A stretch of DNA of 64,000 bases from Paracoccaceae bacterium. GTDB lineage: Bacteria > Pseudomonadota > Alphaproteobacteria > Rhodobacterales > Rhodobacteraceae. Of the stretch, positions 26,798-58,503 are shown piece after piece. The notes under the pieces are model-generated. The model saw only the letters and a list, made by a program, of their open reading frames with translations. It was not told the DNA's origin and made no database searches. Where the stretch lies: the NCBI GenBank assembly GCA_023383015.1, contig JAHDXW010000018.1:1-64000 (forward strand), in the 5' to 3' direction. The translations under genes were made by a program, and so were the position numbers. Position 1 is the first letter of the stretch, and the number at the start of each line of letters is the position of its first letter.

Positions 26798-26822
26798 CCA
26801 GCCGCACCGGCTGCGGCCTTAT
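26794..26822 (+). promoter_or_regulatory. weak candidate promoter for the BMP-type transporter operon
   Basis: TTGACC (26794-26799) overlaps the rimI stop and is followed after 17 bases by CCTTAT. The first gene of the operon starts about 80 bases further on with a GGGAG ribosome binding site. The -10 match is weak. Confidence 0.3.
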
Positions 26823-26901
26823 GGCGGCGATCCGCAAGAGATCCGTCGCAGAACGGGCGCCGCCGCGAACGCTGCGCCCGCAACCAGACCGGGAGACATC
26901 C

Positions 26902-27897: not shown

Positions 27898-27902
27898 GCT
27901 GA

Positions 27903-43527: not shown

Positions 43528-44886
43528 ATGACCGAGGGCACGATCCTCATCGCCAACCGTGGCGAGATCGCGGTGCGGATCATCCGCGCCGCGCGCGAGC
43601 TTGGGCTGCGGACGCTGCAGGCGCACAGCAGTGCGGACGCCGGCTCGCTGGCGGTGCGGCTGGCCGATGCGGCGGTCGACATCGGACCGGCTCCGGCCGC
43701 GAAATCCTACCTGCGGATCGATGGTCTGATCGATGCCGCCCGGCGGGGCGGTGCGACCGCGGTTCATCCTGGCTATGGCTTCCTGTCCGAGAACGCGGCC
43801 TTCGCGGCCGCGGTGGAGGCTGCGGGCCTTGCCTGGATCGGCCCCTCGGCCGAGGCGATCCGGCGCATGGGCGACAAGGCCGCGGCCCGCGCCACGGCCA
43901 TCGCCGCCGGCGTTCCCACCGTGCCCGGCAGCGACGGTCCGCTTGCAACCGTCGGGGAGGCGGCGGTGGTCGCCGCGGCGCTGGGCTATCCGGTGATGGT
44001 GAAGGCCGCGGCCGGCGGCGGCGGCCGGGGCATCCGCATCGCCCGCGACCCCGAGGAACTGCTGCGGCTATGGCCGCAGGCGGCGGCCGAGGCGCAGGCT
44101 GCCTTCGGCGACGGCGCGCTGTACCTCGAGAAGGTGATCGAGCATGCCCGGCATGTCGAGGTACAGGTGCTGGGCGACGGGCGGCGCGTCATCCACCTGT
44201 TCGAGCGCGAGTGCTCGCTGCAGCGCCGGCGCCAGAAGCTGTGGGAGGAGGCACCGTCGCCCGTGCTTCCCGACGCGCTGCGCGACGCGCTCTGCGCCTC
44301 GGCGGTCGCACTGGCCCAGTCGGTGGGCTACCGCGGGGCCGGCACCGTGGAGTACCTCTATGACGAGGCGTCGGGCCGCTTCTACTTCATCGAGATGAAC
44401 ACCCGCATCCAGGTCGAGCATCCCGTGACCGAGATGATCACCGGGATCGACCTTGTCCGCGAGCAGATCCGCATCGGCCTCGGCGCCGATCTCGGCATGA
44501 CACAGGCCGCCGTGCGGCGCCACGGCCACGCGCTGGAGGTGCGGCTGAACGCCGAGGACCCGGCCCGCGGCTTCATGCCCCGCCCCGGGCGGATCGACCA
44601 TCTGGAGCTTCCCGGCGGCCCGGGGGTGCGCGTCGACACGATGCTCTTCCCCGGTTACACGGTGCCGCCCTACTATGACTCGCTGCTGGCCAAGCTGGTC
44701 GTCTGGGGCGAGGACCGCGGGCACGCCCTGGCACGGCTGGAACGGGCGCTGGCAGAGTTGCGGATCGAGGGCGTGCCCACGACCGCGGGCCTGCACCGCG
44801 ACCTTGCCGCCGACCCGGAGGTGCGCGCGGCCCGCTTCCACAGCACCTGGCTGGAGGGATGGCTGGCGGCACGCCAGCCGCGGTGA
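43528..44886 (+). CDS. biotin carboxylase (AccC-like)
   Basis: This encodes 452 aa. The biotin carboxylase domains are complete: ILIANRGEIAVRIIRAARELG, HPGYGFLSENAAFAAA, the ATP-grasp loop VMVKAAAGGGGRGIRIA and the active-site EMNTRIQVEHPVTEMITGIDLV. It carboxylates biotin on a carrier protein using ATP and bicarbonate. It is probably not the housekeeping accC, because it is not next to a standard accB. Instead it faces a small biotinyl-domain gene and the PxpABC locus. It converges with that gene at 39 bases. Its job may be tied to the lactamase complex. Confidence 0.9.
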   Translation: MTEGTILIANRGEIAVRIIRAARELGLRTLQAHSSADAGSLAVRLADAAVDIGPAPAAKSYLRIDGLIDAARRGGATAVHPGYGFLSENAAFAAAVEAAGLAWIGPSAEAIRRMGDKAAARATAIAAGVPTVPGSDGPLATVGEAAVVAAALGYPVMVKAAAGGGGRGIRIARDPEELLRLWPQAAAEAQAAFGDGALYLEKVIEHARHVEVQVLGDGRRVIHLFERECSLQRRRQKLWEEAPSPVLPDALRDALCASAVALAQSVGYRGAGTVEYLYDEASGRFYFIEMNTRIQVEHPVTEMITGIDLVREQIRIGLGADLGMTQAAVRRHGHALEVRLNAEDPARGFMPRPGRIDHLELPGGPGVRVDTMLFPGYTVPPYYDSLLAKLVVWGEDRGHALARLERALAELRIEGVPTTAGLHRDLAADPEVRAARFHSTWLEGWLAARQPR

Positions 44887-44925: not shown

Positions 44926-45168
44926 TCAGGTCTCGATGGCGGCCAGCGGATCGTCCACGTCCACCAGCCCGTCGTTGTCGGTCATGTAGCCGGCGAAGAT
45001 GCCGCCGCGTTCGGCGCGGACCTCGTTGAACGACTTCATCACCTCGATCAGCCCGACGACGTCGCCCGCTGCCACCGCCTCGCCGTCGGCCTTGAACGGC
45101 GGCCGGTCGGGACCGGGGCGGTGATAGAAGATGCCCGGAAGCTCGGCGCGGATGATGTGGGCGGGCAT
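44926..45168 (-). CDS. biotinyl/lipoyl carrier domain protein (AccB-like)
   Basis: This encodes 80 aa consisting only of a biotinyl domain: PGIFYHRPGPDRPPFKADGEAVAAGDVVGLIEVMKSFNEVRAERGG. The lysine in EVMKS is the expected attachment site (EAMKM in classical AccB). It lacks the long N-terminal linker of AccB. It is the last gene of the minus-strand operon, 32 bases after the GntR gene. It presumably works with the facing biotin carboxylase, possibly as part of the PxpABC-type reaction. Confidence 0.88.
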   Translation of the reverse strand: MPAHIIRAELPGIFYHRPGPDRPPFKADGEAVAAGDVVGLIEVMKSFNEVRAERGGIFAGYMTDNDGLVDVDDPLAAIET

Positions 45169-45200
45169 GGCTCGGCTGGTGTCCCTGTGTGCTGGTCCGG

Positions 45201-45947
45201 TCAGTGCGGCAGGGCCGCGGGTGGCGCGGCGGCGCTGCGGGCGGCCGCCTCGAGGTTGCCGATCACGGCCTCGAGCGGCCTGAGGTGCCGGTCGATGGCG
45301 GCCAGCGTCTGCTCCTCGGACCGGCTGGCCACGGCCTCGAGGGTGTCGCGGTGGAGTGCGACCACGTTGAGCACGTCCTCGTACTGGTCGAAGTACTCCT
45401 GCGCCCGCGCGTAGAGCTGTTCCATGATCTCGTGCTGGTAGTGCGCCAGCAGCGGGCTGCGCGCCGCTCGTCCCATGGCGTAGTGGAACAGGTGGTCGTG
45501 GTGGATGCGCTGCGCCGGACGCCCGCCCAGATGCGCCTCGAGCAGGCGGATCTGGGTCTCCATGTCGGCAAGGTCGGCCTCGGTGGCGTTGCGCGCGGCC
45601 AGCAGGGCGATCGAGGTCTCGATCGGGCGCCGCGCCTCGGCCAGGGCGCGCAGGCTGAAACGCTGCCAGAACGGCGACTGGTTGATCAGCCGCACCGGGA
45701 TCTCGTCGCTGACCACCACCGCGCCGCCGCCGAGGCCACGCCGCGTCTCGACGATGCCGGCATCGCCGAGGATCTTCAGCGCCTCGCCGATGACCGGCCG
45801 GCTGACCTGCAGCATCTCCGACAGTTCCTCGATCTGCGGCAGCCGGTCGCCGGGCTGCACGGCGCCCGAGCGGATCACGAAGGTGATCTGCTCGACCACA
45901 CCCTGCGCCGCCTTGCCATGCGCCACCGGATAGAACTGCCAGGTCAC
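45201..45947 (-). CDS. GntR-family regulator of the catabolic island (FadR/FCD type)
   Basis: This encodes 248 aa. The winged-helix part reads VEQITFVIRSGAVQPGDRLPQIEELSEMLQVSRPVIGEALKILGDAGIVETRRGLGGGAVV, followed by a helical FCD ligand domain (RIHHDHLFHYAMGRAARSPLLAHYQHEIMEQLY, with His residues placed like metal ligands). It is co-transcribed near the end of the long minus-strand operon. It is a good candidate to bind the palindromes in the divergent promoter region at 58561-58706 and to respond to a pathway intermediate (inference). Confidence 0.9.
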   Translation of the reverse strand: MTWQFYPVAHGKAAQGVVEQITFVIRSGAVQPGDRLPQIEELSEMLQVSRPVIGEALKILGDAGIVETRRGLGGGAVVVSDEIPVRLINQSPFWQRFSLRALAEARRPIETSIALLAARNATEADLADMETQIRLLEAHLGGRPAQRIHHDHLFHYAMGRAARSPLLAHYQHEIMEQLYARAQEYFDQYEDVLNVVALHRDTLEAVASRSEEQTLAAIDRHLRPLEAVIGNLEAAARSAAAPPAALPH

Positions 45948-45962
45948 TGTCCCCGCCCGCCC

Positions 45963-46979
45963 CTAGATCTCCTTGCGCCGCCACGCGCCGATGTAAGCCC
46001 GGCAATGCTCGTCACGCCCTGCCAGAACGTCCTCGGCCAGACGGTAGGCGAGGGTGTCCGGCTGCATCCCGAAGGCGCGGGACGGCGGGTTCATCACCGG
46101 ATCGATTATCCCACTCGAGGCCCCCGCTTCAACGGCCATCCGCAGGAAGGCGTCGTTGATGGCCCGCCGGTAGGGAATGCCGAAGGAGACGTTGGAAAAG
46201 CCCCCGGTGATGTGGATCTCCGGCCCCCAGCGGTCGCGCAGGGCCCGCATCGCGCCCAGCGCATGGCCCGGAAAGCTGGCATCGACCGAGACCGGAAAGA
46301 TCAGCGGATCGATGTGGATGTCGGCTGGCGGGATAGCGCGCGCGAGGGCTGCCTCGACCATGCGCGAGGCGTTGGCCACCCGGTCGTCGATACCCGCGGG
46401 CATGCCCTTCTCGCCGGCCGCGGTGACGACGACGGCCGCCCGCCCGTCGCGGGCGAGGTCGAGCGCCTCGAGCCGTTCGAGCGAGGCCGAGTTCACCATC
46501 GGCCGCGGCCCGCCGGGGGCGCAGGCCGCAAGCCCGGTCGCGATGATCTCGAGGTTCGAGGAATCCACCGACAGCGGCAGGCGGCTGATCTCCTGCACGC
46601 AGCGGACCAGCCAGTCCATCGCAGCCTGCTGGCGGTCGAGCCGGATCGACATCTCGTCGACGTTGAGGTCGAGGAAATGCGCCCCCGCCGCCTCCTGCGC
46701 GCGGACGACATGGGTGATGTAGGCCCGCCCGAGGCGGGCGGCGGCGGGGTCGCTGCCCATCCCGGCGAGGATGGCGATGCGGATGTGCTTGACGCGACCC
46801 TCCTCGAAGTCCTGGCCGCGGCGGACCGCGTCGGGGACGGGCAGGTGCAGCGTCGTGCCGTCCTCGCCGGGGAAGGCGATCGCCTCCTGCCCCTCGCCGC
46901 CCACGATCCTGGGGCTCTTGCGCATCAGCACCCGGGTCGCGTGCGTGTTCTCGCCGATCACGATGAAGCGGTCGTCCAT
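45963..46979 (-). CDS. methyltetrahydrofolate:corrinoid methyltransferase (pterin-binding fold)
   Basis: This encodes 338 aa of the dihydropteroate-synthase-like MeTr family. Segments include FIVIGENTHATRV, AGAHFLDLNVDEMSIRLDRQQAAMDWLVRCVQEISRLPLSVDSSNLEIIATGLAA and IHITGGFSNVSFGIPYRRAINDAFLRMAVEAG, typical of enzymes that move methyl groups between a corrinoid protein and tetrahydrofolate. In this operon it would accept the methyl from the corrinoid protein (methyltransferase II). It overlaps the activator gene by 22 bases. Confidence 0.88.
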   Translation of the reverse strand: MDDRFIVIGENTHATRVLMRKSPRIVGGEGQEAIAFPGEDGTTLHLPVPDAVRRGQDFEEGRVKHIRIAILAGMGSDPAAARLGRAYITHVVRAQEAAGAHFLDLNVDEMSIRLDRQQAAMDWLVRCVQEISRLPLSVDSSNLEIIATGLAACAPGGPRPMVNSASLERLEALDLARDGRAAVVVTAAGEKGMPAGIDDRVANASRMVEAALARAIPPADIHIDPLIFPVSVDASFPGHALGAMRALRDRWGPEIHITGGFSNVSFGIPYRRAINDAFLRMAVEAGASSGIIDPVMNPPSRAFGMQPDTLAYRLAEDVLAGRDEHCRAYIGAWRRKEI

Positions 46980-48646
46980 GCCCCCTCCAGGCTGGCGGCC
47001 GGATGCGGGCCGGCCGCGGCACCCGCCGGCGGCATCGGCCGGAACTGGCATCCCTCGACGAAGAGGTCGAAGAAATCCGGCGTGGTTTCGAGTTCGACAT
47101 GCTCGATACGCGCGGTCAGCGCCTCGAGCCGGCGGCGGTCGGACAGTGACAGCAGGGCCCGGCGCGCCCCCCGCAGCGCGGCATTGCCCACCTTGCGCAC
47201 CCGCTCGGCCGGCACCGGCGCAAGCAGGCCGATCTCGACCGCATGGCCGAGGTCGAGCCAGTTGGCGAAGCCGCCGGCAACGTGCAGTGCCCCGATCGCG
47301 GCGGGCGCGAGCCCGCAGTGGCGCAGGAGGATCATCTGGCCGCAGTAGTTGGCCGCCTTGGCCTGGGCGAGATGGCTGACATCGGCACGCGAGAGCGTGA
47401 TGCCGCGGTCGGGCACGACCACGAGGTCGGCGCGCCGGGGCAGCCGGTCGAAGGTGCCCTTCGGCCCCATCACCCCCTGACGGCGCAGCCCGGCCAGGAG
47501 GTCGACAAGGCCCGAGCCGCAGAGCCCTGCCGGCGGGCCGCCGCCGATGGTGCCGAAGGCCAGCGCCGCGCCGTCGGCACCGACCTCGATGCGCTCGATC
47601 GCCCCCTCCTCGCCGCGCATCCCGAAGCGCACGCCGCCGCCCTCGAAGGCCGGACCGGCCGGGCAGGAGGCGCAGACGATGCGCCCGTCGACGGCGATTA
47701 CCACCTCGGTGTTGGTGCCGATGTCGATCAGCATCCGCGGCTGCGGCGCGGGGTCGAGAAAGCCCTCGGCCAGAAGGCAGGCGGCGGTGTCGCCCCCGAC
47801 ATGGCTGGCAAGCAGCGGCAGGCCGATGGCGCGGGTGCGGATGTTGGCCCTGAGCCCAAGGTCGGCCGCAGGCAGTGCCAGGGCCGTCGAGGGCCGCAGC
47901 CCGGCGCGGAACTCGGCCTCTGTCACCGACTTGTAGGGCTTCTGCCCGATCGGCTGGACGTCGAGCCCGAAGAAGAGGTCGCGCATGCAGGAATTGCCGG
48001 CGACGACGATCTCGTAGATCTCCCGCCGCCGGAAGCCGAGAGCCTCGGCCATCGCCGCGATCTCGGCGTTCAGTGCCGCGACCGCCGCCTTCTGCAACTC
48101 CCCCCGCCCGGCGCCGCCGTCATAGGAGATGCGGCTCATGACGTCCGAGCCGCCGAAGCGCTGCGGGTTCTCGAACGACCGGGCGGCGCGCACCTCGCCC
48201 GTGAGCAGGTCGACGAGTTCCAGCGCCACGGTGGTGGTGCCGAGATCGACCGCAAGCCCCAGCGCGTGGCCGTGGAAGCGGTCGACCGCCTCGCCCTCGA
48301 TCAGGACGCGGCCGCCGTCGACGGTCACCGCCGGGTCGGTCGGGCCGGGCGCGGCGCCGCCGCCGCCGCCGTCGCTGCCGAGGATCTGCGGCCGCCGGCG
48401 CAGGGTGCGGAAGCCCACCCTCGCCGCCGGATCGTGCACCGCCGCCTGGCAGGCCAGACGGAAGGCGCCGGTCAGGAAGGCCTCGGCCTCGCTGCGCGGC
48501 GACAGCGCCCCGGCCCCCTCGGTAACCTCGACGATGCACTCGTGGCAGCGCCCGGTGCGCCCGCAGGACGAGGGGACCAGCAGCGCCAGCGCGTCGGCAC
48601 GGTCGAACAGCGTGCCGCCCGGGCCGGACTGCGGCGGCGGCGTCAT
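46958..48646 (-). CDS. corrinoid-protein reductive activator (RACo/RamA-like ASKHA protein)
   Basis: This encodes 562 aa. The N-terminus has a [2Fe-2S] ferredoxin-type cysteine set (SSCGRTGRCHECIVE with Cys28, Cys34, Cys37, then Cys66 in RLACQAA). The remainder is an ASKHA ATPase-like domain: ALGLAVDLGTTTVALELVDL, IYEIVVAGNSCMRDLFFGL, PRMLIDIGTNTEVVIAVDG and LHVAGGFANWLDLGHAVEIGLLAP. Such proteins use ATP to reduce accidentally oxidised Co(II) corrinoid back to active Co(I). It starts by ATGA overlap with the preceding small gene. It defines this operon as a true corrinoid methyl-transfer system. Confidence 0.9.
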   Translation of the reverse strand: MTPPPQSGPGGTLFDRADALALLVPSSCGRTGRCHECIVEVTEGAGALSPRSEAEAFLTGAFRLACQAAVHDPAARVGFRTLRRRPQILGSDGGGGGAAPGPTDPAVTVDGGRVLIEGEAVDRFHGHALGLAVDLGTTTVALELVDLLTGEVRAARSFENPQRFGGSDVMSRISYDGGAGRGELQKAAVAALNAEIAAMAEALGFRRREIYEIVVAGNSCMRDLFFGLDVQPIGQKPYKSVTEAEFRAGLRPSTALALPAADLGLRANIRTRAIGLPLLASHVGGDTAACLLAEGFLDPAPQPRMLIDIGTNTEVVIAVDGRIVCASCPAGPAFEGGGVRFGMRGEEGAIERIEVGADGAALAFGTIGGGPPAGLCGSGLVDLLAGLRRQGVMGPKGTFDRLPRRADLVVVPDRGITLSRADVSHLAQAKAANYCGQMILLRHCGLAPAAIGALHVAGGFANWLDLGHAVEIGLLAPVPAERVRKVGNAALRGARRALLSLSDRRRLEALTARIEHVELETTPDFFDLFVEGCQFRPMPPAGAAAGPHPAASLEGAWTTASS

Positions 48647-48981
48647 CCGCCGTCCTCCGGCGCGGCCGCGGCGCGTCGCGCCGCCGCCTCCTCGCGGATG
48701 CGGCGCAGCTTGGCGCGCGTCATCTCGTAGGTCTCGGGCCGCATCTCCCAGGCCGTGCGGTAATCGAAGCGCCCGTCATGCCCGCAGGCCAGCGCCCGCT
48801 CGGCGCCGGCCGGGGCGGGGCGCTGGTTGCGGCAGCGGAAGCGGGCGGTGCACAGATCCAGCCGGTCGCGATAGGGGCAGCGGTCGCGCGACATCTCCTG
48901 CGCCTGGTCGGCGATCGACGCGAACATCTCGCCGATCTGGCGGATGCGGTCACGGAACGACTCGGGATCGCCGCCGGACAT
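48643..48981 (-). CDS. small four-cysteine protein in a corrinoid operon
   Basis: This encodes 112 aa. Cysteines lie at 35, 44, 50 and 66 (DRCPYRDRLDLCTARFRC and ALACGHDGRFDY). The flanks are helical and charged. The spacing C-x8-C-x5-C-x15-C is not a pattern I can name, but it could bind zinc or an iron-sulfur cluster. It lies between the corrinoid protein and its activator, coupled to the latter by ATGA, which suggests a role in corrinoid reactivation or electron supply (inference). The ATG at 48979-48981 is chosen to follow the corrinoid gene by 10 bases. Confidence 0.75.
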   Translation of the reverse strand: MSGGDPESFRDRIRQIGEMFASIADQAQEMSRDRCPYRDRLDLCTARFRCRNQRPAPAGAERALACGHDGRFDYRTAWEMRPETYEMTRAKLRRIREEAAARRAAAAPEDGG

Positions 48982-48991
48982 TGCCACCGCC

Positions 48992-49741
48992 TCAGGCGTT
49001 GATGCCGAGCAGCCGCTTGGCCTCGGCAACGCAGGCCAGCGCATCCTTTCCGTAGCCGTCCGCGCCCATGTCGTCGGCGAACTCCTGCGTCACCGGCGCC
49101 CCGCCGACCATGATCTGCACGTCGTCACGCAGGCCGGCGTCGATGAAGGCCTCGATCGTCCGGCCCATGTTCGGGACCGTGGTGGTCAGCAGCGCCGACA
49201 TGCCGACCAGCCGCGCACCGCTTTCCTCGACCGCGTCGATGAAGGCGTCGGGCGCGGTGTCCACCCCGAGGTCGACCACCTCGAAGCCCGCCCCGCGCAG
49301 CATCATGATGCAGAGGTTCTTGCCGATGTCGTGCAGGTCGCCCTTGACGGTGCCCATCACCACCTTGCCAGCCGGCGGCACGCCCGACGCCGACAGGATC
49401 GGCTCGATATGCGCCATGCCCGACTTCATCGCCCGCGCGCAGGCCAGCACCTCGGGCACGAAGATGAAGTTCTCGCGGAACTTGATGCCGACCACGCCCA
49501 TTCCGGCGATCAGCCCGTCGTCCATGACCTCGATCGCGACGTGTCCGGCCTCCAGCGCCTCGCGCGTCAGCCGGTCGCAGAGGTGGTGCTCACCCTCGAT
49601 CACCGCCAGCGCGATCGCCTGCATCCGCGGATGGGCGCGCGAGAAGACCCGCAGGTTGCGCTCGATCTCGGCCGGCCGCGTGACGAACTCCTCGATCTCG
49701 CCGCGCAGCGCCTCGTTGGAAATCAGGGAGAAGTCGGTCAT
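48992..49741 (-). CDS. B12-binding corrinoid protein
   Basis: This encodes 249 aa. An N-terminal four-helix B12-binding-2 domain (HHLCDRLTREALEAGHVAIEVMDDGLIAGMGVVGIKFRENFIFVPEVLACARAM) is followed by the cobalamin Rossmann domain with the base-off ligand motif GDLHDIGKNL (Asp135, His137, Gly140), then GMSALLTTTVPNM and IMVGGAPVTQEFADDMGADGYG. It shuttles a methyl group on cobalt between the substrate methyltransferase and the tetrahydrofolate-side enzyme, both encoded in this operon. Confidence 0.95.
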   Translation of the reverse strand: MTDFSLISNEALRGEIEEFVTRPAEIERNLRVFSRAHPRMQAIALAVIEGEHHLCDRLTREALEAGHVAIEVMDDGLIAGMGVVGIKFRENFIFVPEVLACARAMKSGMAHIEPILSASGVPPAGKVVMGTVKGDLHDIGKNLCIMMLRGAGFEVVDLGVDTAPDAFIDAVEESGARLVGMSALLTTTVPNMGRTIEAFIDAGLRDDVQIMVGGAPVTQEFADDMGADGYGKDALACVAEAKRLLGINA

Positions 49742-49756
49742 CCGCAGCCCGCTGGT

Positions 49757-50836
49757 TCAGCCGTTGTTGTGGGAATGGTCGTGATGGTGGCAGCGGGCAC
49801 CGCCGCCGGCGGAGTGCCAGGCCCTCACCGCCCGCGGGATGGCACGAAGGTTCTCGATCGAGGTCTGCAGCGGGATCGCGCATTCGGGGCCGACGAGGTG
49901 GATGCCGGCCTCGAGGTTCGCCAGCACTTCGGCCTCCACCTGCTCGGGATCGCGGGCGAACAGCGTCTCGGGGTTGTTGATGTTGCCGACCAGGGCGCAG
50001 TGGCCGCAGACCGCGGCCATCGATTCATCGGGGCGGTTCTTGGAATCGAAGTGGAAGGCGGCCATGCCGGTCTCGGCGATGTAGGGCATCCGGTCGACGG
50101 TGCGGCCGCAGATGTGCAGGATGATCGGCACCGGCAGCCGGGCCGCAAACTCGGCGTGCAGTTCCTTCAGGAACCGGCGGTAGTAGTCGGCGCTCACGAG
50201 GTCGCCGGTGGCGTGGTCGGGCAGGGTCAGGGCATCGGCCCCGGCCTCGATCTGCGCCAGGCCGTAGGCGATCGTCACCTCCTTCAGCCGCTCGAGCACC
50301 TGCATCGTCTTGCCGGGATCGTCGAGCGCCATCAGCAGGAACGGCTCGACCCCGAAGCCGTGGTAGGCCAGCGACCAGGGGCCCATCGTCTTGCCGATGA
50401 TCGCCACCTCGTCGCCGTGGCGCCGCCGCAGGATGCGGATCGCCTCGGTCACGCAGGCGGTGTCGGGATGGGTCAGCAGGTCGGGCGGGATGCGGATGTC
50501 CTCGACGTCGCGCCAGATCGGCTCGCGCATCTTCACCGTCGGCCAGTTGTCCTTCTGCTCCCACTGGATCTTGCAGCCCAGCGCCGAGGATTCCTGGATG
50601 ATCGAGAACACCGGCATGATCGTGTCGAAGCCGAGCTCGGTGTAGGAGGTCTCGGCCAGGTTGGCCATCTTCTCGGGGATGCGGTTGGCCTCCGGGAAGA
50701 AGGCGTCGGCAAGGTCCATCAGCTCGACCGTCGCCACCGAGGTGGGGTTGCAGACCGGCGTGCGGTCCACCGGCTCGCGGCGCAGCGCCGCGAGCACGCG
50801 CTGGCGGCTGGTCATCGGGCTGATCGGCTGGGACAT
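49757..50836 (-). CDS. UroD-family (MtaA/CmuA-like) corrinoid methyltransferase
   Basis: This encodes 359 aa of the uroporphyrinogen-decarboxylase fold. The zinc motif of the methyltransferase branch is present: IILHICG with His241 and Cys243, and VGPECAIP with Cys319. Such enzymes activate a methyl donor through zinc and pass the methyl to a corrinoid protein. A heme-pathway UroD would not have this zinc set or this context. It ends in a His-rich tail (CHHHDHSHNNG) that may store or sense metal. It lies 15 bases before the corrinoid gene. It is the likely substrate-specific methyltransferase of the operon; no MttB-type gene is present. Confidence 0.88.
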   Translation of the reverse strand: MSQPISPMTSRQRVLAALRREPVDRTPVCNPTSVATVELMDLADAFFPEANRIPEKMANLAETSYTELGFDTIMPVFSIIQESSALGCKIQWEQKDNWPTVKMREPIWRDVEDIRIPPDLLTHPDTACVTEAIRILRRRHGDEVAIIGKTMGPWSLAYHGFGVEPFLLMALDDPGKTMQVLERLKEVTIAYGLAQIEAGADALTLPDHATGDLVSADYYRRFLKELHAEFAARLPVPIILHICGRTVDRMPYIAETGMAAFHFDSKNRPDESMAAVCGHCALVGNINNPETLFARDPEQVEAEVLANLEAGIHLVGPECAIPLQTSIENLRAIPRAVRAWHSAGGGARCHHHDHSHNNG

Positions 50837-50848
50837 CGGTGCCTCCCG

Positions 50849-51499
50849 TCAGTTCGGCTGGTTCTGGGCGCTGGGGGCAACCAGCACGCCGCGACCGGCA
50901 ACCGATTCCTCCTCGCGCATGGCGGCCCGCGCGTTCAGCGCGCGCGGCAGCAGGAGCGCCACGAGGCGGTCGTGGTCATGGCCGCAGGGGAATGCCACGG
51001 CGGGGCCGGCGGCCTCGTCCACCGCCATCTCGGCAAGCTTGCCGAACCCGCCGGCGATCGTGCGCAACCGCACCGACATGTCGCCCGGGGCGTCGGCCGA
51101 CAGCCTGTAGCGGCCTGCGCCCAGCCCCTCGACGTGGTAGCGGGCGCCGCTGCGTGCCTCGTCGGCCTCGGGCGGGCGCAGCGCGGGCAGCGCGGGACCG
51201 GCAAGCTTGCAGACCTCGACGAAAAGCCGCCGGGTGGCCGACAGATGCGCCGCCCCGCAGGGCCAGGCGACCGCATGGGCGCGGGCGCCGGAGGCGACCA
51301 TGCCGCCGAGGTGACAGGCCGCGGCAGCCAGGAAGTCGAGCCGCAGGCCGGCGTCGGGGTGGCAGCTGTAGGAGTGGAAGGCGTAGAAGGGCGTGCCGCC
51401 GGGCGCAAGGTCGCGGTAGAGGGCGACAGTGATGTCGTGGCAGTGGGCATCCATCGGTTGCAGGGCAACCCGGCGGCCAAGCTCCAGCACATGTCCCAT
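50849..51499 (-). CDS. unrecognised Cys/His-rich protein in the corrinoid operon
   Basis: This encodes 216 aa of no family I recognise. It has six cysteines and several paired metal-ligand-like motifs: MDAHCHDITV (residues 16-25), FHSYSCHPDAG (41-51), ACHLGG (61-66), WPCGAAH (79-85) and FPCGHDHD (170-177). There is no signal peptide or clear membrane helix. It starts after an AT-rich gap that may hold a promoter and precedes the substrate methyltransferase by 12 bases. It could be a second substrate-binding subunit, a demethylase component or a hydrolase. It is a good candidate for a new protein family. Confidence 0.7.
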   Translation of the reverse strand: MGHVLELGRRVALQPMDAHCHDITVALYRDLAPGGTPFYAFHSYSCHPDAGLRLDFLAAAACHLGGMVASGARAHAVAWPCGAAHLSATRRLFVEVCKLAGPALPALRPPEADEARSGARYHVEGLGAGRYRLSADAPGDMSVRLRTIAGGFGKLAEMAVDEAAGPAVAFPCGHDHDRLVALLLPRALNARAAMREEESVAGRGVLVAPSAQNQPN

Positions 51500-51538
51500 C
51501 AGACCCGTCCCCTTGCATCCAGCGGGGTGCGCCGGGGC

Positions 51539-51567
51539 ACCCTACCGGACGATTCATAAAACAACAA
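51539..51567 (-). promoter_or_regulatory. possible internal promoter before the methyl-transfer module
   Basis: The 94 bases between pxpC and the Cys/His-rich gene include an AT-rich stretch that stands out in this genome. Read on the minus strand, TTGTTG (51562-51567) is followed after 17 bases by TAGGGT (51539-51544). An inverted repeat GGACGA (51547-51552) / TCGTCC (51586-51591) flanks the AT-rich core. This may let the methyl-transfer genes be expressed apart from the transporter and lactamase genes. Confidence 0.35.
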
Positions 51568-51593
51568 GCCCTTTGACTTATTGGTTCGTCCCC

Positions 51594-52574
51594 TCAGGTC
51601 ACGATCGCGGCCGGGGTGCATTTCCGGCCGAGGTCGCGGGCGAGCGCCTGCGCCTCCTCGACGCCGACCTCCCTGAACCGCAAGATATCTCCCGGACGCG
51701 CCTGGGCAAGCTTCCAGAACACGGCGTAGGGAACCGTCCAGGGGTTGATGAAGCCGCCCATGCTGGGCCCGTCCTGGACGAGGATGATCAGGGTGTCGCC
51801 GGCAAGGTTGACTGCCCCCAGCGGATAGCCCTGGTCGATGATGTTGGCGGGCTGGGCGCCATGCTCCACCGGCTTGTCGCGGGCCCGGCCGGCAAAGCTC
51901 AGGACCGGGCCCTGGAGCCTGTAGCCGGTGCGGTCGCTGCGCCCCGTCAGCACCCAGTCGGTGCCGTAGAAAGTGGCGTGTCCGGCGTCGTCGATCCAGT
52001 CGTCGTTGGGCCCGCGCACCGCCTCGACCTCGTGGCGCTTGCCCTGCCCGATCGGCGGGCGGGCCCCGGGCGCGACCCGCCGGCCGGGGGCCGCCCCGGG
52101 CCGCGGCGCGGGGCCGAGCGGCAGTCCGGCCCCCTCGGACAGCGCATGCCCCCCCAGCCCGCCGACGCCGGCCTTGTGGAAGGTCGCGCGCGAACCCAGC
52201 ATCGGCGGCGTCGCGATGCCGCCGGCGACCGCAAGATAGGCCCGCGCGCCGCTGCGCGCGGGGCCGAGCGCAAGCACCTGGCCGGCCGTCACGGCCACGC
52301 TTTCCCACATCGGCAGGGGCACGCCGTCAAGCGTCGGGCGCATGTCGGCGCCGGTGACGGCAATCAGCCGGTCATCGGTGAAGGCGAGCGTCGGGCCGAG
52401 GAACTGCGCCTCGAGCCCGGCTGTCCCCGGGGGGTTGCCGACCAGCAGGTTGGCCAGCCGGAACGACCATGAATCGAACGGCCCCGAGACCGGGAAACCC
52501 TGGTTGGCAAAGCCGATCCGGCCCGGCCAGTCCTGCACCGAGGTCTCCAGCCCGGGCTTGATGACCTTCAGCAT
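51594..52574 (-). CDS. pxpC: 5-oxoprolinase subunit C-like (biotin-dependent carboxyltransferase family)
   Basis: This encodes 326 aa of the KipA/PxpC family: LKVIKPGLETSVQDWPGRIGFANQGFPVSGPFDSWSFRLANLLVGNPPGTAGLE at the N-terminus and SDRTGYRLQGPVL plus DGPSMGGFINPWTV later. With PxpA and PxpB it forms an ATP-dependent enzyme that opens 5-oxoproline to glutamate, or in relatives other lactams or amides. The related domain of urea amidolyase works with biotin, which fits the biotin carboxylase and carrier genes nearby. It follows pxpB by 12 bases. Confidence 0.92.
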   Translation of the reverse strand: MLKVIKPGLETSVQDWPGRIGFANQGFPVSGPFDSWSFRLANLLVGNPPGTAGLEAQFLGPTLAFTDDRLIAVTGADMRPTLDGVPLPMWESVAVTAGQVLALGPARSGARAYLAVAGGIATPPMLGSRATFHKAGVGGLGGHALSEGAGLPLGPAPRPGAAPGRRVAPGARPPIGQGKRHEVEAVRGPNDDWIDDAGHATFYGTDWVLTGRSDRTGYRLQGPVLSFAGRARDKPVEHGAQPANIIDQGYPLGAVNLAGDTLIILVQDGPSMGGFINPWTVPYAVFWKLAQARPGDILRFREVGVEEAQALARDLGRKCTPAAIVT

Positions 52575-52586
52575 CCCCGGCCCCCC

Positions 52587-53456
52587 TCAGAACCGCGCCG
52601 CCGGGTCAAGCCCGGCCACCCAGGCGCGGTAGGCCGGCACCGAGAACTTCTGGTACTCGACGAGGTTGAAGGCATAGCTCCCCTCCTCCACCTTGCGTTC
52701 GGCTTCGGCGAACTCCTCGAGCGTCACCGGCACGAACCTGACCCGGTCGCCGGGCTTCAGGAGGCAGATCGAATCGCGGAAGACGTCGAAGCGCTGCGCG
52801 GGATCCCAGATCGGAACCGGGATGCGGGCGAAGACCTGGATGCCGCCCGGCAGGTCCTCGGGGTAGATGCCGGTGTTGGCCCCTCCGAGGCCCACGGTGC
52901 CCTTCCTCGTCCACACCCGCGGCGGGTTGTAGCGCGGCACCGACAGCTTGCAGCGCGGGTCGAGCGCCAGCATGAACGGCACCCCCGGCCACCAGCCGAT
53001 CGCCGCCACCCAGTATTCGCTGCCCGAATGCACCCGGACGAGCTGGGCCGTGTCTGCCAGCCCGTTGTGCTGGACGATCAGTTCGGGATCCCAGGTCTTG
53101 GGGGCGATGGTGGCGCAGTAGCGCTCCCAGGCCTCGCGGCTCCAGGGGTCGAGGTAGGCGGTGGGCAGGCAGAACAGCCGGCTCGACAGCTCGAGCTGGT
53201 CGGAGGGCCCGAGCTCGGCCACCAGCCGGCCCAGCGCGTCCGTGACAGCGGCAAAGCTCGTCTCCTCGGGCTCGTAATGGACGAGCAGCGAGGCGAAGGC
53301 GGGCGCCGTCTCGATCACCCCGCGCGGCCGCTCGGCGGCGACGATCGCGGCCAGCCCGTGGGCCATGAAGTTGACCTCGAGGGTCATGTGGTTGCCGAAC
53401 TCGACCAGCAGGTAGCGGTCGCCGGCGGGCAGGAACCGCGGGGTGTCGTAGACCAT
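52587..53456 (-). CDS. pxpB: 5-oxoprolinase subunit B-like (KipI/PxpB family)
   Basis: This encodes 289 aa. It starts MVYDTPRFLPAGDRYLLVEFGNHMTLEVNFMAHGLAAIV and has the family block GWWPGVPFMLALDPRCKLSVPRYNPPRVWTRKGTVGLGGANTGIYPEDLPGGIQVFARIP. It is about 60 residues longer than compact KipI proteins; the extra length includes YLDPWSREAWERYCATIAPKTWDPELIVQHNGL. It pairs with PxpC in the lactam-opening complex. The ATG at 53454-53456 lies 17 bases after the pxpA stop. Confidence 0.91.
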   Translation of the reverse strand: MVYDTPRFLPAGDRYLLVEFGNHMTLEVNFMAHGLAAIVAAERPRGVIETAPAFASLLVHYEPEETSFAAVTDALGRLVAELGPSDQLELSSRLFCLPTAYLDPWSREAWERYCATIAPKTWDPELIVQHNGLADTAQLVRVHSGSEYWVAAIGWWPGVPFMLALDPRCKLSVPRYNPPRVWTRKGTVGLGGANTGIYPEDLPGGIQVFARIPVPIWDPAQRFDVFRDSICLLKPGDRVRFVPVTLEEFAEAERKVEEGSYAFNLVEYQKFSVPAYRAWVAGLDPAARF

Positions 53457-53473
53457 CGAGCTCTCTCCTCCCC

Positions 53474-54235
53474 TCAGGCCGCGGCGGCGAGTGTAACGCC
53501 GGCCGCTATGACCTCGGCGCGGATCAGGGCGAGCATCGCGGCGGCGTTGGGACCGTCGCCGTGGATGCAGATCGAGCGCGCCGCCACCGCGATCTCGCCC
53601 CCGGAGGCGGTCGAGACGACGCCGCGGTCGAGGAAGGCGCGCACCCGGCGGCGGGTGAGATCGAGGTCGACCGCCGCCTTCCGCCGCTCGAGGATCAGCC
53701 GTCCGTCCTCGCCGTAGCCGAGATCGAAGTAGACCTCGGGCACCACGTCGATGCCCGCCCGCGCCGCCGCTGCGGGCAAGGCCAGTCCGGCCACCGGGGC
53801 CGGCCAGTAGAGGCGCGGCTCGGGGCAGACGGCGCGGATCGCCGCCGCCACGGCCTCTGCAAGGCCCATGTCCTCGTTCAGCATCAGGTAGAGCGCCCCG
53901 TGCGGCTTGACGTGGTTCAGCCGCATCCCGCGCGTGGCCAGCATCGCCTGCAGCGCCCCGGCCTGGTAGAGCACCATGGCGTGCGCCTCGTCGGGGCTGA
54001 TCGCCATCCGCCGCCGGCCGAACCCCTGCAGGTCGGGCAGCCCGGGATGGGCGCCGACCGCGGTGCCGGCCGCCTGCGCAAGGTCGATGGTTCGCAGCAT
54101 CGTCAGCGGGTCGCCGGCATGGTAGCCGCAGGCGACGTTGGCGGCCGTCACCTGCGGCACGATCTCGGCATCCGCGCCCAGCGTCCAGTTGCCGAAGCTC
54201 TCGCCGCAGTCGCAGTTGATGTCGATCGTCCTCAT
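53474..54235 (-). CDS. pxpA: 5-oxoprolinase subunit A-like (LamB/YcsF family)
   Basis: This encodes 253 aa. Family motifs are all clear: TIDINCDCGESFGNW, VTAANVACGYHAGDP, VGAHPGLPDLQGFGRRRM, LNHVKPHGALYLML and, near the end, ICIHGDGPNAAAML. This is the catalytic TIM-barrel-like subunit of the PxpABC lactamase. Its ATG overlaps the transporter ATPase stop by 4 bases (54232-54235), so uptake and ring opening are translationally coupled. That favours a dedicated imported lactam over housekeeping removal of 5-oxoproline. Confidence 0.94.
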   Translation of the reverse strand: MRTIDINCDCGESFGNWTLGADAEIVPQVTAANVACGYHAGDPLTMLRTIDLAQAAGTAVGAHPGLPDLQGFGRRRMAISPDEAHAMVLYQAGALQAMLATRGMRLNHVKPHGALYLMLNEDMGLAEAVAAAIRAVCPEPRLYWPAPVAGLALPAAAARAGIDVVPEVYFDLGYGEDGRLILERRKAAVDLDLTRRRVRAFLDRGVVSTASGGEIAVAARSICIHGDGPNAAAMLALIRAEVIAAGVTLAAAA

Positions 54236-55377
54236 GCCCCCTCCCCGGCGGCGCCGACGGCGGCGATCGCCTGGCCGCTGGCGGGATCGAACAGCGCCAT
54301 GTCCCGCGGGGCGGCGTCGAGCACCAGCGCGGACCCCGGCTCGGGGGCGACGTCGGCGGCCACCTCGGCCACCAGCGCCCGCCCCGCGGCCAGAAGGCCC
54401 GGCGCATCCACCGGCGTGCAGACGAGGAAGTTGCTGCGCCCCAGATGCTCCACCAGTTCCACCCGCACGGCAAGGCCGCGCGTGCCGGGCCCAGCCGGCC
54501 GCAGGTGGTGGGGACGGATGCCCACCTCCACCGGCCCGGGCACAAGCCCGGCCGGCGCCGCCAGCACGGCGGCGGCCGGCGCACCCGCGGCGGCCAGCCC
54601 GTCCGGCCCGGCGACCATCGCCAGGAGGTTCATCGACGGGCTGCCGATGAAGCGGGCGACGAAGCGGTTGGCGGGCCTGGCATAGACGGTGTCGGGCGGG
54701 CCCGCCTGCTGCAGGCGGCCACCGTCGAGCACCGCAAGCGTGGTCGACAGCGTCATCGCCTCGGCCTGGTCATGGGTGACGAAGACCATCGTCACCCCGA
54801 GCTCGCGGTGCAGCCGTCCAAGCTCGATCCGCATCGTCTCGCGCAGCTTCAGGTCGAGGTTCGAGAGCGGCTCGTCGAGCAGGAACACCCGCGGCCGGCG
54901 CACGATCGCGCGCCCCAGCGCCACCCGCTGGCGCTCGCCGCCCGACAGCCGGTCGGGGCGCTTGCCGAGCAGATGCGTGATCCCCAGCGTCGCCGCCGTC
55001 GCCTCCAGCCGGACGGCGATCTCGCGGCGCGGCACGCGGCGGTTGCGCAGGCCGAAGGTGATGTTGTCGGCCGCCGTCATGTGCGGGTAGAGCGCGTAGT
55101 CCTGGAACACCATGGCGATGTCGCGGGCCCGCGGCGGCAGCCCGGTGACGTCGCGCCCGTCGATCAGCACCCGCCCCTCGGTGGGCATCTCGAAGCCCGC
55201 GATGATCCGCAGGAGGGTCGTCTTGCCGCAGCCCGACGGGCCGAGGATCGAGAAGAACGCCCCCGGCGCGATCGCCAGCGACACCCCGGCCAGCGACGGG
55301 CGGTCGGCCCCCTGGTAGGTCTTGCCGACGCCCTCGAGAACCACCGGCGCCGCTTCCGCCATCGCCCCGTCCCTCAT
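54232..55377 (-). CDS. ABC transporter ATPase (UgpC/MalK/PotA-like)
   Basis: This encodes 381 aa. The nucleotide-binding domain has Walker A GPSGCGKTTLLRIIAGF, Q-loop VFQDYALYPHM, signature LSGGERQRVALGRAI and Walker B VFLLDEPLSNLD. A C-terminal TOBE/OB regulatory domain follows (EVGIRPHHLRPAG, VELVEHLGRSNFLVCTPVD). The ATG at 55375-55377 overlaps the upstream permease stop. It drives import through the two permeases. Confidence 0.94.
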   Translation of the reverse strand: MRDGAMAEAAPVVLEGVGKTYQGADRPSLAGVSLAIAPGAFFSILGPSGCGKTTLLRIIAGFEMPTEGRVLIDGRDVTGLPPRARDIAMVFQDYALYPHMTAADNITFGLRNRRVPRREIAVRLEATAATLGITHLLGKRPDRLSGGERQRVALGRAIVRRPRVFLLDEPLSNLDLKLRETMRIELGRLHRELGVTMVFVTHDQAEAMTLSTTLAVLDGGRLQQAGPPDTVYARPANRFVARFIGSPSMNLLAMVAGPDGLAAAGAPAAAVLAAPAGLVPGPVEVGIRPHHLRPAGPGTRGLAVRVELVEHLGRSNFLVCTPVDAPGLLAAGRALVAEVAADVAPEPGSALVLDAAPRDMALFDPASGQAIAAVGAAGEGA

Positions 55378-56186
55378 CGCATCGCCCCCAGGCTGATGCC
55401 GCGGGCGAGCTCGCGCTGCAGCAGGAAGACCACCACCACCAGCGGCATGAAGGCGACCATCGCGCCGGCGGTGAGATAGCCCCAGTCGGTCTGGAAGGGG
55501 GTGATGGTGCTGCCCAGCCGCACCGGCAGCGTCACCCAGCGCTCGCGCGTCAGCAGGAAGGCGAACAGGAATTCGTTCCACGCGAAGACAAAGGTGAAGA
55601 TCGTCGTCACGGCCACCCCGCCCTTGGTCATCGGCAGGGCGATGCGGAACAGGGTCGCCACCGGCCCCGCCCCGTCGGCAGCGGCAGCCTCGATCACCGA
55701 GCGCGGCAACTCGGCGAAATAGCCCTGCAGCATCCAGATCGCGAACGGCAGCGAGAACGACAGGTAGACCAGCAGCAGCCCGGCGTAGCTGTCCAGCAGC
55801 CCGACCCGCGACAGCACCAGATAGAAGGGGATGACCGTCGCGATCGGGGGCAGCATCCGCAGCGACAGGATCCACATCGCCATGCCCTCGCGCCCGCGCA
55901 GCGGCGAATGGGCGAGCGCATAGGCGGCAAACGCCGCCAGCACGACAGAGACGACCGTGGCGCCGCCGGCCACCGCGAGACTGTTGAGCAGGAACGGCCC
56001 GTAGGCACGTTCGCCGAACAGCGCCCGGTAGGATTCCAGCGTCGCCACGAAGACGAAGGTGGGTCGCAGCCCGGTCAGCCCGCCGGCGGGCTTGAGCGAG
56101 GTCACCAGCGTCCACAGGATCGGAAATACCCAGACCAGTGCCATCACGCCCAGCGGCACCAGCCACAGGCGCGCCGGCCCCCTCAC
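55374..56186 (-). CDS. ABC transporter permease (MalG/UgpE-like)
   Basis: This encodes 270 aa with six membrane helices. It starts at a GTG (56184-56186) overlapping the stop of the other permease. The coupling EAA loop is ELPRSVIEAAAADGAGPVATLFRIALPMTKGGVAVTTIFTFVFAWNEFLFAFLL, typical of the MalG group. The protein ends GISLGAMR. It forms half of the importer channel. Confidence 0.93.
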   Translation of the reverse strand: MRGPARLWLVPLGVMALVWVFPILWTLVTSLKPAGGLTGLRPTFVFVATLESYRALFGERAYGPFLLNSLAVAGGATVVSVVLAAFAAYALAHSPLRGREGMAMWILSLRMLPPIATVIPFYLVLSRVGLLDSYAGLLLVYLSFSLPFAIWMLQGYFAELPRSVIEAAAADGAGPVATLFRIALPMTKGGVAVTTIFTFVFAWNEFLFAFLLTRERWVTLPVRLGSTITPFQTDWGYLTAGAMVAFMPLVVVVFLLQRELARGISLGAMR

Positions 56187-57115
56187 CCCTGCCCCCTGCC
56201 GACCACGCCCTGGCGCGCGATCGCGCGCACCAGCAGCGTCACGATCACCGACACCAGCACCAGCAGCACCACCGAGGCCGCCGCGGCGTCGCCGATCTCG
56301 AAGGCGACGAAGGCGGTCTCCCAGATCATCACCGGGAAGGTGTAGCTGGCATCCCCCGGCCCGCCCTGGGTGGTGGCGACGATGATCTCGAAGGCGCGCA
56401 GCAGGTCGATCAGCCGCAGGAGCGCGACGATCACGATCACCCGCCTGACCTGCGGCAGCGCGACGTGCAGCGTCTGCTTCCACGGCCCCGCGGCATCAAG
56501 CTCGGCGGCCTCGAAATACTGCGGCGGGATCGCGTGCAGCCCCGCCAGCACGGTCAGGAAGACCAGCGGCGTCCACTGCCAGACGTCGATCAGCACGATC
56601 GCGAGGAGGGCGATCGAGGGCGAACTGAGCCAGCCCACGGGCGGCAGGCCGAGGCCGGTGATGAAGTGGTTCAGGATGCCGAAATCGGGCTGGAACATGA
56701 ACCGCCACATCACCGCCGCGACCACCGGGGCGACGAGGATCGGCATCGCCAGGACGGTCCGCAGCAGGCCCATGCCGGGCAGCCGGCGCATCCGGTGCAC
56801 CCAGACGGCCAGCGCGATCCCCAGCGCAAGCTCCACCGCCAGCGCGGTGACGGTGAAGCTCATGCTGCGCAGGATGGCCACCTCGAATTTCGCCGAGGTG
56901 ACGAGATAGTAGTAGTTCTCCAGCCCGACCCAGCGCGGCGGCCGCACCTGGAAGAGGTTGCGCCGGTAGAGCGATGCCACGACCACATGGATCACCGGCA
57001 CAGCCACAAGAAGGGCCAGCAGCGCCACCACCGGATAGAGCATCAGCGCTGCCTGCAGCCGCTCGCCGCGGCGTGAGGGTGGCGGCGCCACGCTGGTCGG
57101 TCCCCTATCCGGCAT
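56183..57115 (-). CDS. ABC transporter permease (MalF/UgpA-like)
   Basis: This encodes 310 aa with six membrane helices. It begins MPDRGPTSVAPPPSRRGERLQAALMLYPVVALLALLVAVPVIHVVVASL and has the coupling loop IPPQYFEAAELDAAGPWKQTLHVALPQVRRVIVIVALLRLID. It lies 8 bases after the binding-protein gene and overlaps the next permease. It belongs to the carbohydrate uptake-1 class, whose members also import polyols, opines and amino-acid derivatives. Confidence 0.93.
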   Translation of the reverse strand: MPDRGPTSVAPPPSRRGERLQAALMLYPVVALLALLVAVPVIHVVVASLYRRNLFQVRPPRWVGLENYYYLVTSAKFEVAILRSMSFTVTALAVELALGIALAVWVHRMRRLPGMGLLRTVLAMPILVAPVVAAVMWRFMFQPDFGILNHFITGLGLPPVGWLSSPSIALLAIVLIDVWQWTPLVFLTVLAGLHAIPPQYFEAAELDAAGPWKQTLHVALPQVRRVIVIVALLRLIDLLRAFEIIVATTQGGPGDASYTFPVMIWETAFVAFEIGDAAAASVVLLVLVSVIVTLLVRAIARQGVVGRGQG

Positions 57116-57123
57116 GCCCTGCT

Positions 57124-58503
57124 TTACAGGTAGCCCGAGCGGCGGAACAGCGTCTCGACGTCGCGCTTCATCGCCGCGCAGGCGTCCTCGGCCGCGATGT
57201 CGGTTGTCACCAGATCGCCGATGTGCTGGGTGATGATCTGGAACAGCTGTGGCCCCTCGGCGAACTGCGCCAGATGGTGGCCGTTGGCCACGCCCTGGGC
57301 GATCGACCGGAAGACCTGGTACTGCGGCTGCTCGCCCCAGCTGTTCAGGAGTTCGGCGTTTGAGGGCTGGCCGCCGGCGCGGATGAAGGTCTCGGCGTTC
57401 TCGCGCGAGGTGACGAACTTGGCGAAATCGAACGTCGCCTCCTTGTTGACCGACGCCCGCGGGATGGCAAGGCCGAAGCCGCCCTTCATGCCGGTACGGG
57501 CGGGGTCGGGGCTGGCGCCGCCAACGGGGAAGTCGCGCGAGACCAGCTGGTCGTGGAAGCGGGGGTTCTCGGCGGGGTTCTGCAGCGTCATGAAGCCCGA
57601 CCACATCACCTGCTGGTGGCTGATGTCATTCTTGAACGCCTCTGCGTTCTCGAACTCCAGCGCGTTCAGCGATGCCGGGTTCCAGATCCGCGACAGCGCC
57701 TTGAGCATCCGCGCCGCCTCGACCACCGCGGGCGCGTCCAGCGTCACCGCGCCCGAGCCGCGGGCGGGGTCGATGCGGCCGAAGGCGTCCATCTCGTCAT
57801 GCTCGTACCAGCGGCCGCCGTAGGCGTGCATCATCCCGGTGAAGGTCATGCCGAGGAACCACTGGGTCCGCCCGGCGCAGGTCATGAAGCCCGCGTTGGC
57901 CTTTGCCGCGTTCAGCTTCTCGGCGTTGGCGAGGATCGTCTCGAAGGAGGCGGGCTCGGCCAGGCCGAGGGCGTCGAAGACATCGCGACGCCACCAGGTC
58001 ATCATGCAGTTGGCGTCGTGCACGATCGAGTAGGGAACGCCGTCCCAGTCCCAGCTGCCGCGATAGAAGTAGGGCACGCCGTTCATGTAGTAGTCGCGCC
58101 AGCCCGGATCGCTGTCGAAGAGCGCCGTCAGAGGCTCGAGCTTGGGGTGCGACTGGCCGATCAGCACCGGGTCGAAGAGATGGGCGTCGAAGGCCGTCGA
58201 ATCCTCGATCAGGCTGGTGCCGATCCGCTGGTAGTGCTCGGCGTAGGGCGACACGAGGATCTCCACCTCGGTGCCGGGGGTGCGGGCCATGTAGGCCGCG
58301 GCCGAGGCGCGCAGCGCGCCCTCCCAGCGCGGGCCGGGCATGGTGGTGACGACGATCCGGCGGCTCTGGGCGACGGCGGGGCTTGCCAGCAGCCCGCCCG
58401 CGGCGGCCACCGCGCCGAAGGCCGCGCCCCGTCGCAGCACCTCGCGCCGGCTGACGCCGCCGGCATGGCCGGGGAACCTCATGCGGTCGGTCTGGGTGCT
58501 CAT
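57124..58503 (-). CDS. Tat-exported ABC transporter substrate-binding protein (family 1)
   Basis: This encodes 459 aa. The N-terminus has a twin-arginine motif (SRREVLRRGAAFGAVAAAGGLLASPAVAQ), so it is likely exported folded through Tat. The mature protein has the type 1 solute-binding fold (RIVVTTMPGPRWEGALRASAAAYMARTPGTEVEILVSPYAEHYQRIGTSLIED and GFGLAIPRASVNKEATFDFAKFVTS). It is the first gene of the 15-gene minus-strand operon. AGGAGA serves as ribosome binding site, and a good promoter lies upstream. The ligand is probably the substrate of the island. Confidence 0.92.
   Translation of the reverse strand: MSTQTDRMRFPGHAGGVSRREVLRRGAAFGAVAAAGGLLASPAVAQSRRIVVTTMPGPRWEGALRASAAAYMARTPGTEVEILVSPYAEHYQRIGTSLIEDSTAFDAHLFDPVLIGQSHPKLEPLTALFDSDPGWRDYYMNGVPYFYRGSWDWDGVPYSIVHDANCMMTWWRRDVFDALGLAEPASFETILANAEKLNAAKANAGFMTCAGRTQWFLGMTFTGMMHAYGGRWYEHDEMDAFGRIDPARGSGAVTLDAPAVVEAARMLKALSRIWNPASLNALEFENAEAFKNDISHQQVMWSGFMTLQNPAENPRFHDQLVSRDFPVGGASPDPARTGMKGGFGLAIPRASVNKEATFDFAKFVTSRENAETFIRAGGQPSNAELLNSWGEQPQYQVFRSIAQGVANGHHLAQFAEGPQLFQIITQHIGDLVTTDIAAEDACAAMKRDVETLFRRSGYL

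Follow-up and report, generated by a model that had tools for sequence, protein, structure and literature searches.

We analysed 64,000 nucleotides from a Paracoccaceae bacterium (contig JAHDXW010000018.1, positions 1 to 64,000; hereafter the window), in which fifteen minus-strand genes (44926-58503) encode an ATP-binding cassette (ABC) importer, relatives of the lactamase subunits PxpA, PxpB and PxpC, a corrinoid methyl-transfer system, a GntR regulator and a biotin carboxyl carrier protein (BCCP). A first-pass annotation had described this content and order, which Pfam and NCBIfam domains bore out, and had read the row as one catabolic pathway. Our central result is that six of the genes are an autonomous corrinoid methyl-transfer module: CysHis (a protein with two CGxxH motifs), UroD (a UroD-fold methyltransferase), CorP (corrinoid protein), 4Cys (a four-cysteine protein), RACo (reductive activator of corrinoid protein) and MeTr (methylcorrinoid/tetrahydrofolate methyltransferase). 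At a probability of roughly 0.7, we consider this corrinoid module (module B) and the importer, Pxp and biotin genes (module A, apparently a biotin-type system) to be two separate modules that are transcribed in one direction, were brought together in this lineage and lie apart elsewhere.

Elsewhere the corrinoid module occurs without pxp-type neighbours

To follow the module beyond the window, homologues of UroD were sought in a sample of the class (384 other genomes), a sample of the order (294 others) and a scan of 84,980 species genomes. Homologues of 70-80% identity were found in 10 of the 384 class genomes and in none of the 294 other genomes of the order, and the order and direction of all six genes were kept around each of the ten. 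The scan returned 214 UroD relatives, the best 80 of which were examined as loci; these 80 are 72-80% identical to UroD and belong to Poribacteria, Latescibacterota, Gemmatimonadota, Acidobacteria, Alphaproteobacteria and a few other groups. Most hosts are uncultured bacteria from sponges (symbionts), seawater, deep lakes and soil. For many Poribacteria the rest of the six-gene core is located elsewhere in the genome; in several of their loci (L043, L049, L061 and others) CysHis-UroD stands apart from CorP and from 4Cys-RACo, and these CysHis-UroD pairs are flanked by beta-propeller (PQQ_2) and beta-lactamase-like genes. A plasmid collection yielded no match to CysHis and only matches of ~24-30% identity to UroD. 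Across 90 module loci the flanking genes depended on lineage and indicated no consistent substrate, folate and methionine genes alone recurring.

Pxp-type genes were absent near the core in the ten class genomes and within up to 10 kb in the 80 loci, giving no pxp neighbours in 90 related loci. Furthermore, a PxpC homologue (E<=1e-20) was missing from 6 of 10 alphaproteobacterial module genomes, and 44 of 49 additional genomes with the module lacked the close PxpC type (E<=1e-60). The gene order is thus, as far as searched, unique to this genome, and a conserved pathway uniting the lactamase with methyl transfer is unsupported. Among open-licence papers, to which all our literature searches were confined, none was found that describes the six-gene module or joins a 5-oxoprolinase with a corrinoid methyltransferase.

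Several observations nonetheless weigh against separate modules. The genes of the row all run the same way, with little space between most of them and some overlaps, and a single sigma70-like site (58592-58563) lies 5′ of the first gene, that of the solute-binding protein. The biotin carrier is encoded beyond the methyl module, leaving the modules interleaved, as would be natural for one pathway. Finally, few genomes of the class have the close PxpC type (5 of 366 others), yet three of these five also carry module B; both occur together in each of the four genomes sampled from family f81 and in another five from Alphaproteobacteria. These points would suit a single pathway encoded by one operon: the corrinoid system would first remove the methyl group from a lactam, imide or urea derivative brought in by the importer, and the Pxp/biotin enzymes would then open the demethylated compound. 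We regard such a pathway as unlikely given the absence of pxp neighbours in related loci and of the PxpC type from most module genomes tested. The co-occurrence comes mainly from f81, and there, as in other Alphaproteobacteria, PxpC type and module lie on different contigs where mapped, so that kinship mostly explains it. The gap between PxpC and CysHis points the same way: at 94 bp it is the sole exception among remaining gaps of 8-32 bp, is AT-richer than its flanks (60% GC against 73% for the window), and its weak hairpin with T-run falls exactly between the two modules. Hairpins in the region are about as numerous as in shuffled sequence, within chance; just the position of this one is distinctive. 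Because of the co-directional genes and the outlying biotin carrier, a single substrate for both modules in this one organism is possible.

CysHis is a partner of this UroD clade

UroD scores above the MtaA/CmuA family cut-off (TIGR01463, 253.7 against 235.4 bits), and its nearest relative in the PDB is a methylcobalamin:coenzyme M methyltransferase (4ay7, E 6e-53). Residues H241, C243 and C319 are invariant in 10 orthologues and align with two segments of 4ay7, LHICG and C-G-I, which we take to be the zinc ligand positions; they are predicted to form an HxC...C zinc site. A second, weak UroD-like match with 26% identity and one in-frame TGA occurs in the window's genome (C6:112222-113112).

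CysHis lies upstream of UroD in 79 of 80 loci, the exception (L108) being cut by a contig end, and its profile matched 7 of 230 class genomes, each of which has UroD with the CysHis match at the same place. This placement and the restriction to UroD-bearing genomes make CysHis an obligate partner of the UroD clade. Four residues (C81, H85, C172 and H176) are invariant across 72 sequences. Each half of the protein carries one CGxxH motif, and alignment shows the two halves to be homologous (hhalign probability 97, E 5e-11), which marks CysHis as a tandem duplication. Neither CysHis nor 4Cys had a significant family match in Pfam or NCBIfam (matches listed up to E 5), and searches of PDB sequences with both profiles returned nothing significant. 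The AlphaFold2 model of CysHis is confident (predicted local distance difference test score, pLDDT, 91; predicted template modelling score, pTM, 0.86). Foldseek found no PDB match to it at E <= 0.001 (best E 0.34, TM ~0.2), leaving the fold unmatched among solved structures. At somewhat under even odds, CysHis may found a new fold family as the substrate-side half of an undescribed class of corrinoid demethylase, one widespread in sponge-symbiont and uncultured bacteria, acting on an abundant methylated substrate and served by a RACo with an extra four-Cys domain.

4Cys is a detached domain of the activator

RACo exceeds the cut-offs of PF14574, PF17651 and PF00111, contains the cluster cysteines CGRTGRCHEC and matches 3zyy in the PDB (E 5e-73). 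Its neighbour 4Cys shares an open reading frame with RACo in 24 (L173-L196) of the 25 loci fetched (L172-L196) and is also fused in 4 of 10 Alphaproteobacteria (L017, L025, L027 and L029), for 28 fused relatives overall; the fused part sits at the RACo N terminus, ahead of the 2Fe-2S domain. In six other Alphaproteobacteria, as in the window, 4Cys has a gene of its own. Its four cysteines are invariant (CPYR...D.CT....C...C), and a search of 38 module genomes recovered 4Cys in 37, including 31 of 32 with a split locus. On the strength of the fusions and the invariant cysteines, 4Cys is a detached domain of the RACo activator, and it may bind a metal or an Fe-S cluster. A structure model of 4Cys was of low confidence (pLDDT 66) and was not used. 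No description of CysHis or of the four-Cys RACo domain was found in the literature searched.

CorP combines two B12 domains with a DLHDIG motif and falls short of the MtgC type (186 bits, cut-off 370); MeTr scores 190.6 bits against PRK07535, under its cut-off of 259. Further corrinoid-protein matches lie on two other contigs of the genome (C38 and C2). As we picture module B, the putative zinc enzyme UroD and its partner CysHis would move a methyl group from the donor to Co(I) of CorP, MeTr would hand it on to tetrahydrofolate, and RACo would re-reduce inactive Co(II) with ATP, the 4Cys domain perhaps serving RACo as an added electron-transfer or docking part.

Methyl groups most likely flow into folate

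The first-pass annotation had proposed a complete corrinoid methyl-transfer system ending on tetrahydrofolate, and this is the most likely arrangement. Genes for methylenetetrahydrofolate reductase (MTHFR), MetV-like proteins and homocysteine S-methyltransferase join the module in relatives: 28 of 42 RACo-bearing loci have MTHFR fused to a MetV-like C-terminal domain, homocysteine S-methyltransferase or PF13769. In one genome (G418) the MTHFR and C-terminal genes are separate and divergent from CysHis. The presence of folate and methionine genes in these loci favours entry of methyl groups into folate.

The nearest solved relative of UroD, MtaA, weighs against this direction, as it passes methyl groups from corrinoid to thiol. 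If module B ran likewise, methyl-tetrahydrofolate would methylate the corrinoid and UroD would pass the methyl group to a thiol, as MtaA does to coenzyme M, for methionine synthesis or S-methylation. The same recurrent MTHFR and homocysteine S-methyltransferase genes would suit such a reversal. We nevertheless consider it improbable, since 10 of 11 Alphaproteobacteria with the module encode a methionine synthase (MetH) that passes its curated cut-off and so do not need the module for methionine supply, and substrate-side use of the UroD superfamily together with a tetrahydrofolate methyltransferase is known from O-demethylases and chloromethane systems (PMC13222342). A role of the module as methionine synthase itself was rejected on the same MetH distribution. 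MetH of the window's genome lies in two pieces on two contigs (C43:24269-26587 and C20:88577-89890), which suggests a split methionine synthase; such enzymes have reportedly been seen in roseobacters.

Since UroD-superfamily enzymes demethylate at O, S and halogen (PMC10418091), an S-methyl, O-methyl or halomethyl donor might, judging by the family alone, be ranked above a quaternary amine, although we hold this ranking to be doubtful.

Module A resembles a biotin-dependent carboxylase with a hydrolase

The row had been said to contain a PxpABC lactamase that opens 5-oxoproline with ATP. PxpA is a genuine member of its family (276 bits against PRK05406.1-3, cut-off 226). The other two subunits are carboxyltransferase (CT) proteins of urea-carboxylase type and lie far below the PxpABC equivalog cut-offs: PxpB reaches 160 bits against urea carboxylase (TIGR02712) and 81.6 against its equivalog TIGR00370 (cut-off 145.55), and PxpC reaches 272 bits against TIGR02712 and 164.3 against NF045499 (cut-off 500). 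They are separate subunits and stay below the cut-off for single-chain urea carboxylase (1303.85 bits). PxpB matches PH0987 and urea carboxylase (3va7) in the PDB, and the nearest solved structure to PxpC is the K. lactis urea carboxylase 3va7, which outranks E. coli YbgK. When 46 CT-A/B proteins were placed in a tree, the window PxpC clustered, with support of 99/98, among CT pairs from marine Alphaproteobacteria and apart from both E. coli PxpC and the PxpC proteins in its own family's five-gene sets; some branches of this tree are long, which makes the exact placement uncertain.

The biotin genes complete a carboxylase set. BCCP (PRK07051, 89.6 bits, cut-off 87) and a convergent biotin carboxylase (BC) 39 bp away, missed in the first-pass annotation (PRK12833, 739 bits, cut-off 686), accompany the CT subunits (51594-53456), and the BC is 58-68% identical to those adjoining other pxp-type CT pairs. 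With a BC and a carrier bearing the EVMKS motif next door, the simplest reading of module A is a biotin-dependent carboxylase plus hydrolase. The ABC importer would bring in an amide-, lactam- or urea-like compound, the BC, carrier and CT subunits would carboxylate it via biotin, and PxpA would hydrolyse the carboxylated product. Five-gene sets of PxpA, BCCP, BC, CT-C/D and CT-A/B are kept together in Thermomicrobium, Thioclava and Methylobacterium, and in all sets of the family that were examined the CT pair has a BC beside it. These arrangements and the CT scores make it very improbable that module A is an ordinary ATP-dependent 5-oxoprolinase beside unrelated, fatty-acid-type biotin genes, as might be proposed from its clear PxpA and from the E. 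coli pxpBCA cluster, which has no adjoining BC or carrier gene.

The nearest named relative of module A is a cluster in Shinella sp. PSBB067 (L143, 1745-14887) with PxpA, an ABC importer, the same CT pair type, an APH-family kinase, a class III aminotransferase, BCCP, BC and an aldehyde dehydrogenase (ALDH), which is likely catabolic, for a hydroxylated amine or lactam. An ALDH gene, likewise missed in the first-pass annotation, also lies beside the window operon. CT-C/D and CT-A/B pairs are doubled in tandem in two loci (L165 and L166, genomes G580 and G488), and genomes of family f81 have 4-6 CT-A/B copies, with enolase-superfamily and BKACE-like genes alongside; together these represent an expansion of biotin-type carboxyltransferases not yet characterised.

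Comparison with known systems

Among the nearest described systems, the Cdm and O-demethylase systems comprise a UroD-superfamily methyltransferase (MTI), a corrinoid protein, a tetrahydrofolate methyltransferase (MTII) and an activating enzyme (PMC13222342). Module B has the same four functions, including an ATP-dependent activator, and differs in its MtaA/CmuA-family UroD with the HxC...C zinc site and obligate CysHis partner, in the extra four-Cys domain of its activator type and in its hosts, which are mostly uncultured bacteria from sponges, seawater, lakes and soil instead of acetogens. The type 1 mlp clusters of Kountz and Balskus, from anaerobes, have at least two Mlps and no tetrahydrofolate methyltransferase within 20 kb (PMC10418091). 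They share with module B an MtaA-like UroD protein, a corrinoid protein and a reductive activase, but module B has one Mlp (the other UroD-like match being weak and on a different contig), includes MeTr and adds two conserved proteins. Glycine betaine systems (MtgB/C/A; roseobacter version, PMC12478193) are alike in their corrinoid protein and in methyl flow to folate, whereas CorP lies under the MtgC cut-offs. The substrate enzymes differ too: MtgB is a trimethylamine (TMA)-methyltransferase-type enzyme, not a UroD protein.

On the side of module A, the five-gene biotin-type sets of Thioclava, Methylobacterium and Thermomicrobium plasmids contain all five families of the window, but the window CT subunits fall in another, more urea-carboxylase-like clade, and the methyl module interrupts the window's set, whose BC is convergent. 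Urea carboxylase/urea amidolyase (K. lactis, 3va7 and 5i8i) offers the nearest solved CT-A/B structure and biotin-dependent N-carboxylation; the window instead has separate polypeptides, and PxpA in place of allophanate hydrolase.

Gene row and neighbourhood

The row (Table 1) had been described as having many 4-base overlaps; overlapping genes exist, but the strict 4-base form occurs in two pairs only (PxpA/ATPase and 4Cys/RACo). RACo and MeTr overlap by 22 bp, and the two permease genes probably overlap too. GC content ranges over 68-74% in the module genes and 69-75% in the others, two overlapping ranges with no island, so that a recent insertion visible from composition was rejected. The solute-binding protein had weak matches in the plasmid collection (~20-25% identity) and gave no substrate clue. 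Elsewhere in the window, a Bmp-family binding protein and a nucleoside-type ABC importer (26068-31548) make up an ordinary purine-nucleoside-type importer, accompanied by a GntR/FCD regulator (31699-32415).

Table 1 Features of the gene row and its flanks, with the matches that identify them
Feature	Coordinates	Strand	Evidence
ALDH, divergent, possibly related	58749..60236	+	PF00171
SBP_bac_1 extracellular solute-binding protein	57124..58503	-	Pfam PF01547 E 1e-16
ABC permease 1	56183..57115	-	BPD_transp_1; start taken from sequence
ABC permease 2, start uncertain	55374..56204	-	BPD_transp_1
ABC ATPase, UgpC/MalK type	54232..55362	-	ABC_tran, TOBE_2; NCBIfam PRK11650 382 bits
PxpA, LamB/YcsF hydrolase	53474..54235	-	PF03746 E 1e-81; PDB UPF0271
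PxpB-like CT C/D subunit (CT_C_D), urea-carboxylase type	52587..53456	-	PF02682
PxpC-like CT A/B subunit (CT_A_B), urea-carboxylase type	51594..52574	-	TIGR02712, PDB 3va7, tree
94-bp gap PxpC/CysHis, weak terminator-like hairpin 51583-51562	51500..51593	-	
CysHis protein, 216 aa, two CGxxH motifs	50849..51499	-	family profile, AlphaFold2 model
UroD-fold methyltransferase, MtaA/CmuA family, predicted zinc site H241, C243, C319	49757..50836	-	TIGR01463
CorP corrinoid protein, B12-binding_2 + B12-binding, DLHDIG motif	48992..49741	-	
4Cys, detached RACo N-terminal domain	48643..48981	-	fusions in relatives
RACo, 2Fe-2S + middle + ASKHA	46958..48646	-	PF14574, PF17651, PF00111
MeTr, methylcorrinoid/tetrahydrofolate methyltransferase, pterin-binding	45963..46979	-	PF00809 E 2e-21
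GntR/FCD transcriptional regulator	45201..45947	-	PF00392 + PF07729
BCCP, motif EVMKS	44926..45168	-	PF00364; PRK07051
BC, convergent with operon	43528..44886	+	PRK12833

Discussion

The main weight of this analysis lies on module B, not on the joint operon, which is the less informative of the two as a local assembly and counsels caution against inferring a pathway from one gene order. Corrinoid demethylases are best known from anaerobes; module B could feed methyl groups into the folate metabolism of bacteria from sponges, seawater, deep lakes and soil. Two uncharacterised families would gain roles, one as a methyltransferase partner of unmatched fold and the other as an extra domain of the RACo activase, and the genome of the window, standing outside the uncultured phyla, may provide a tractable host.

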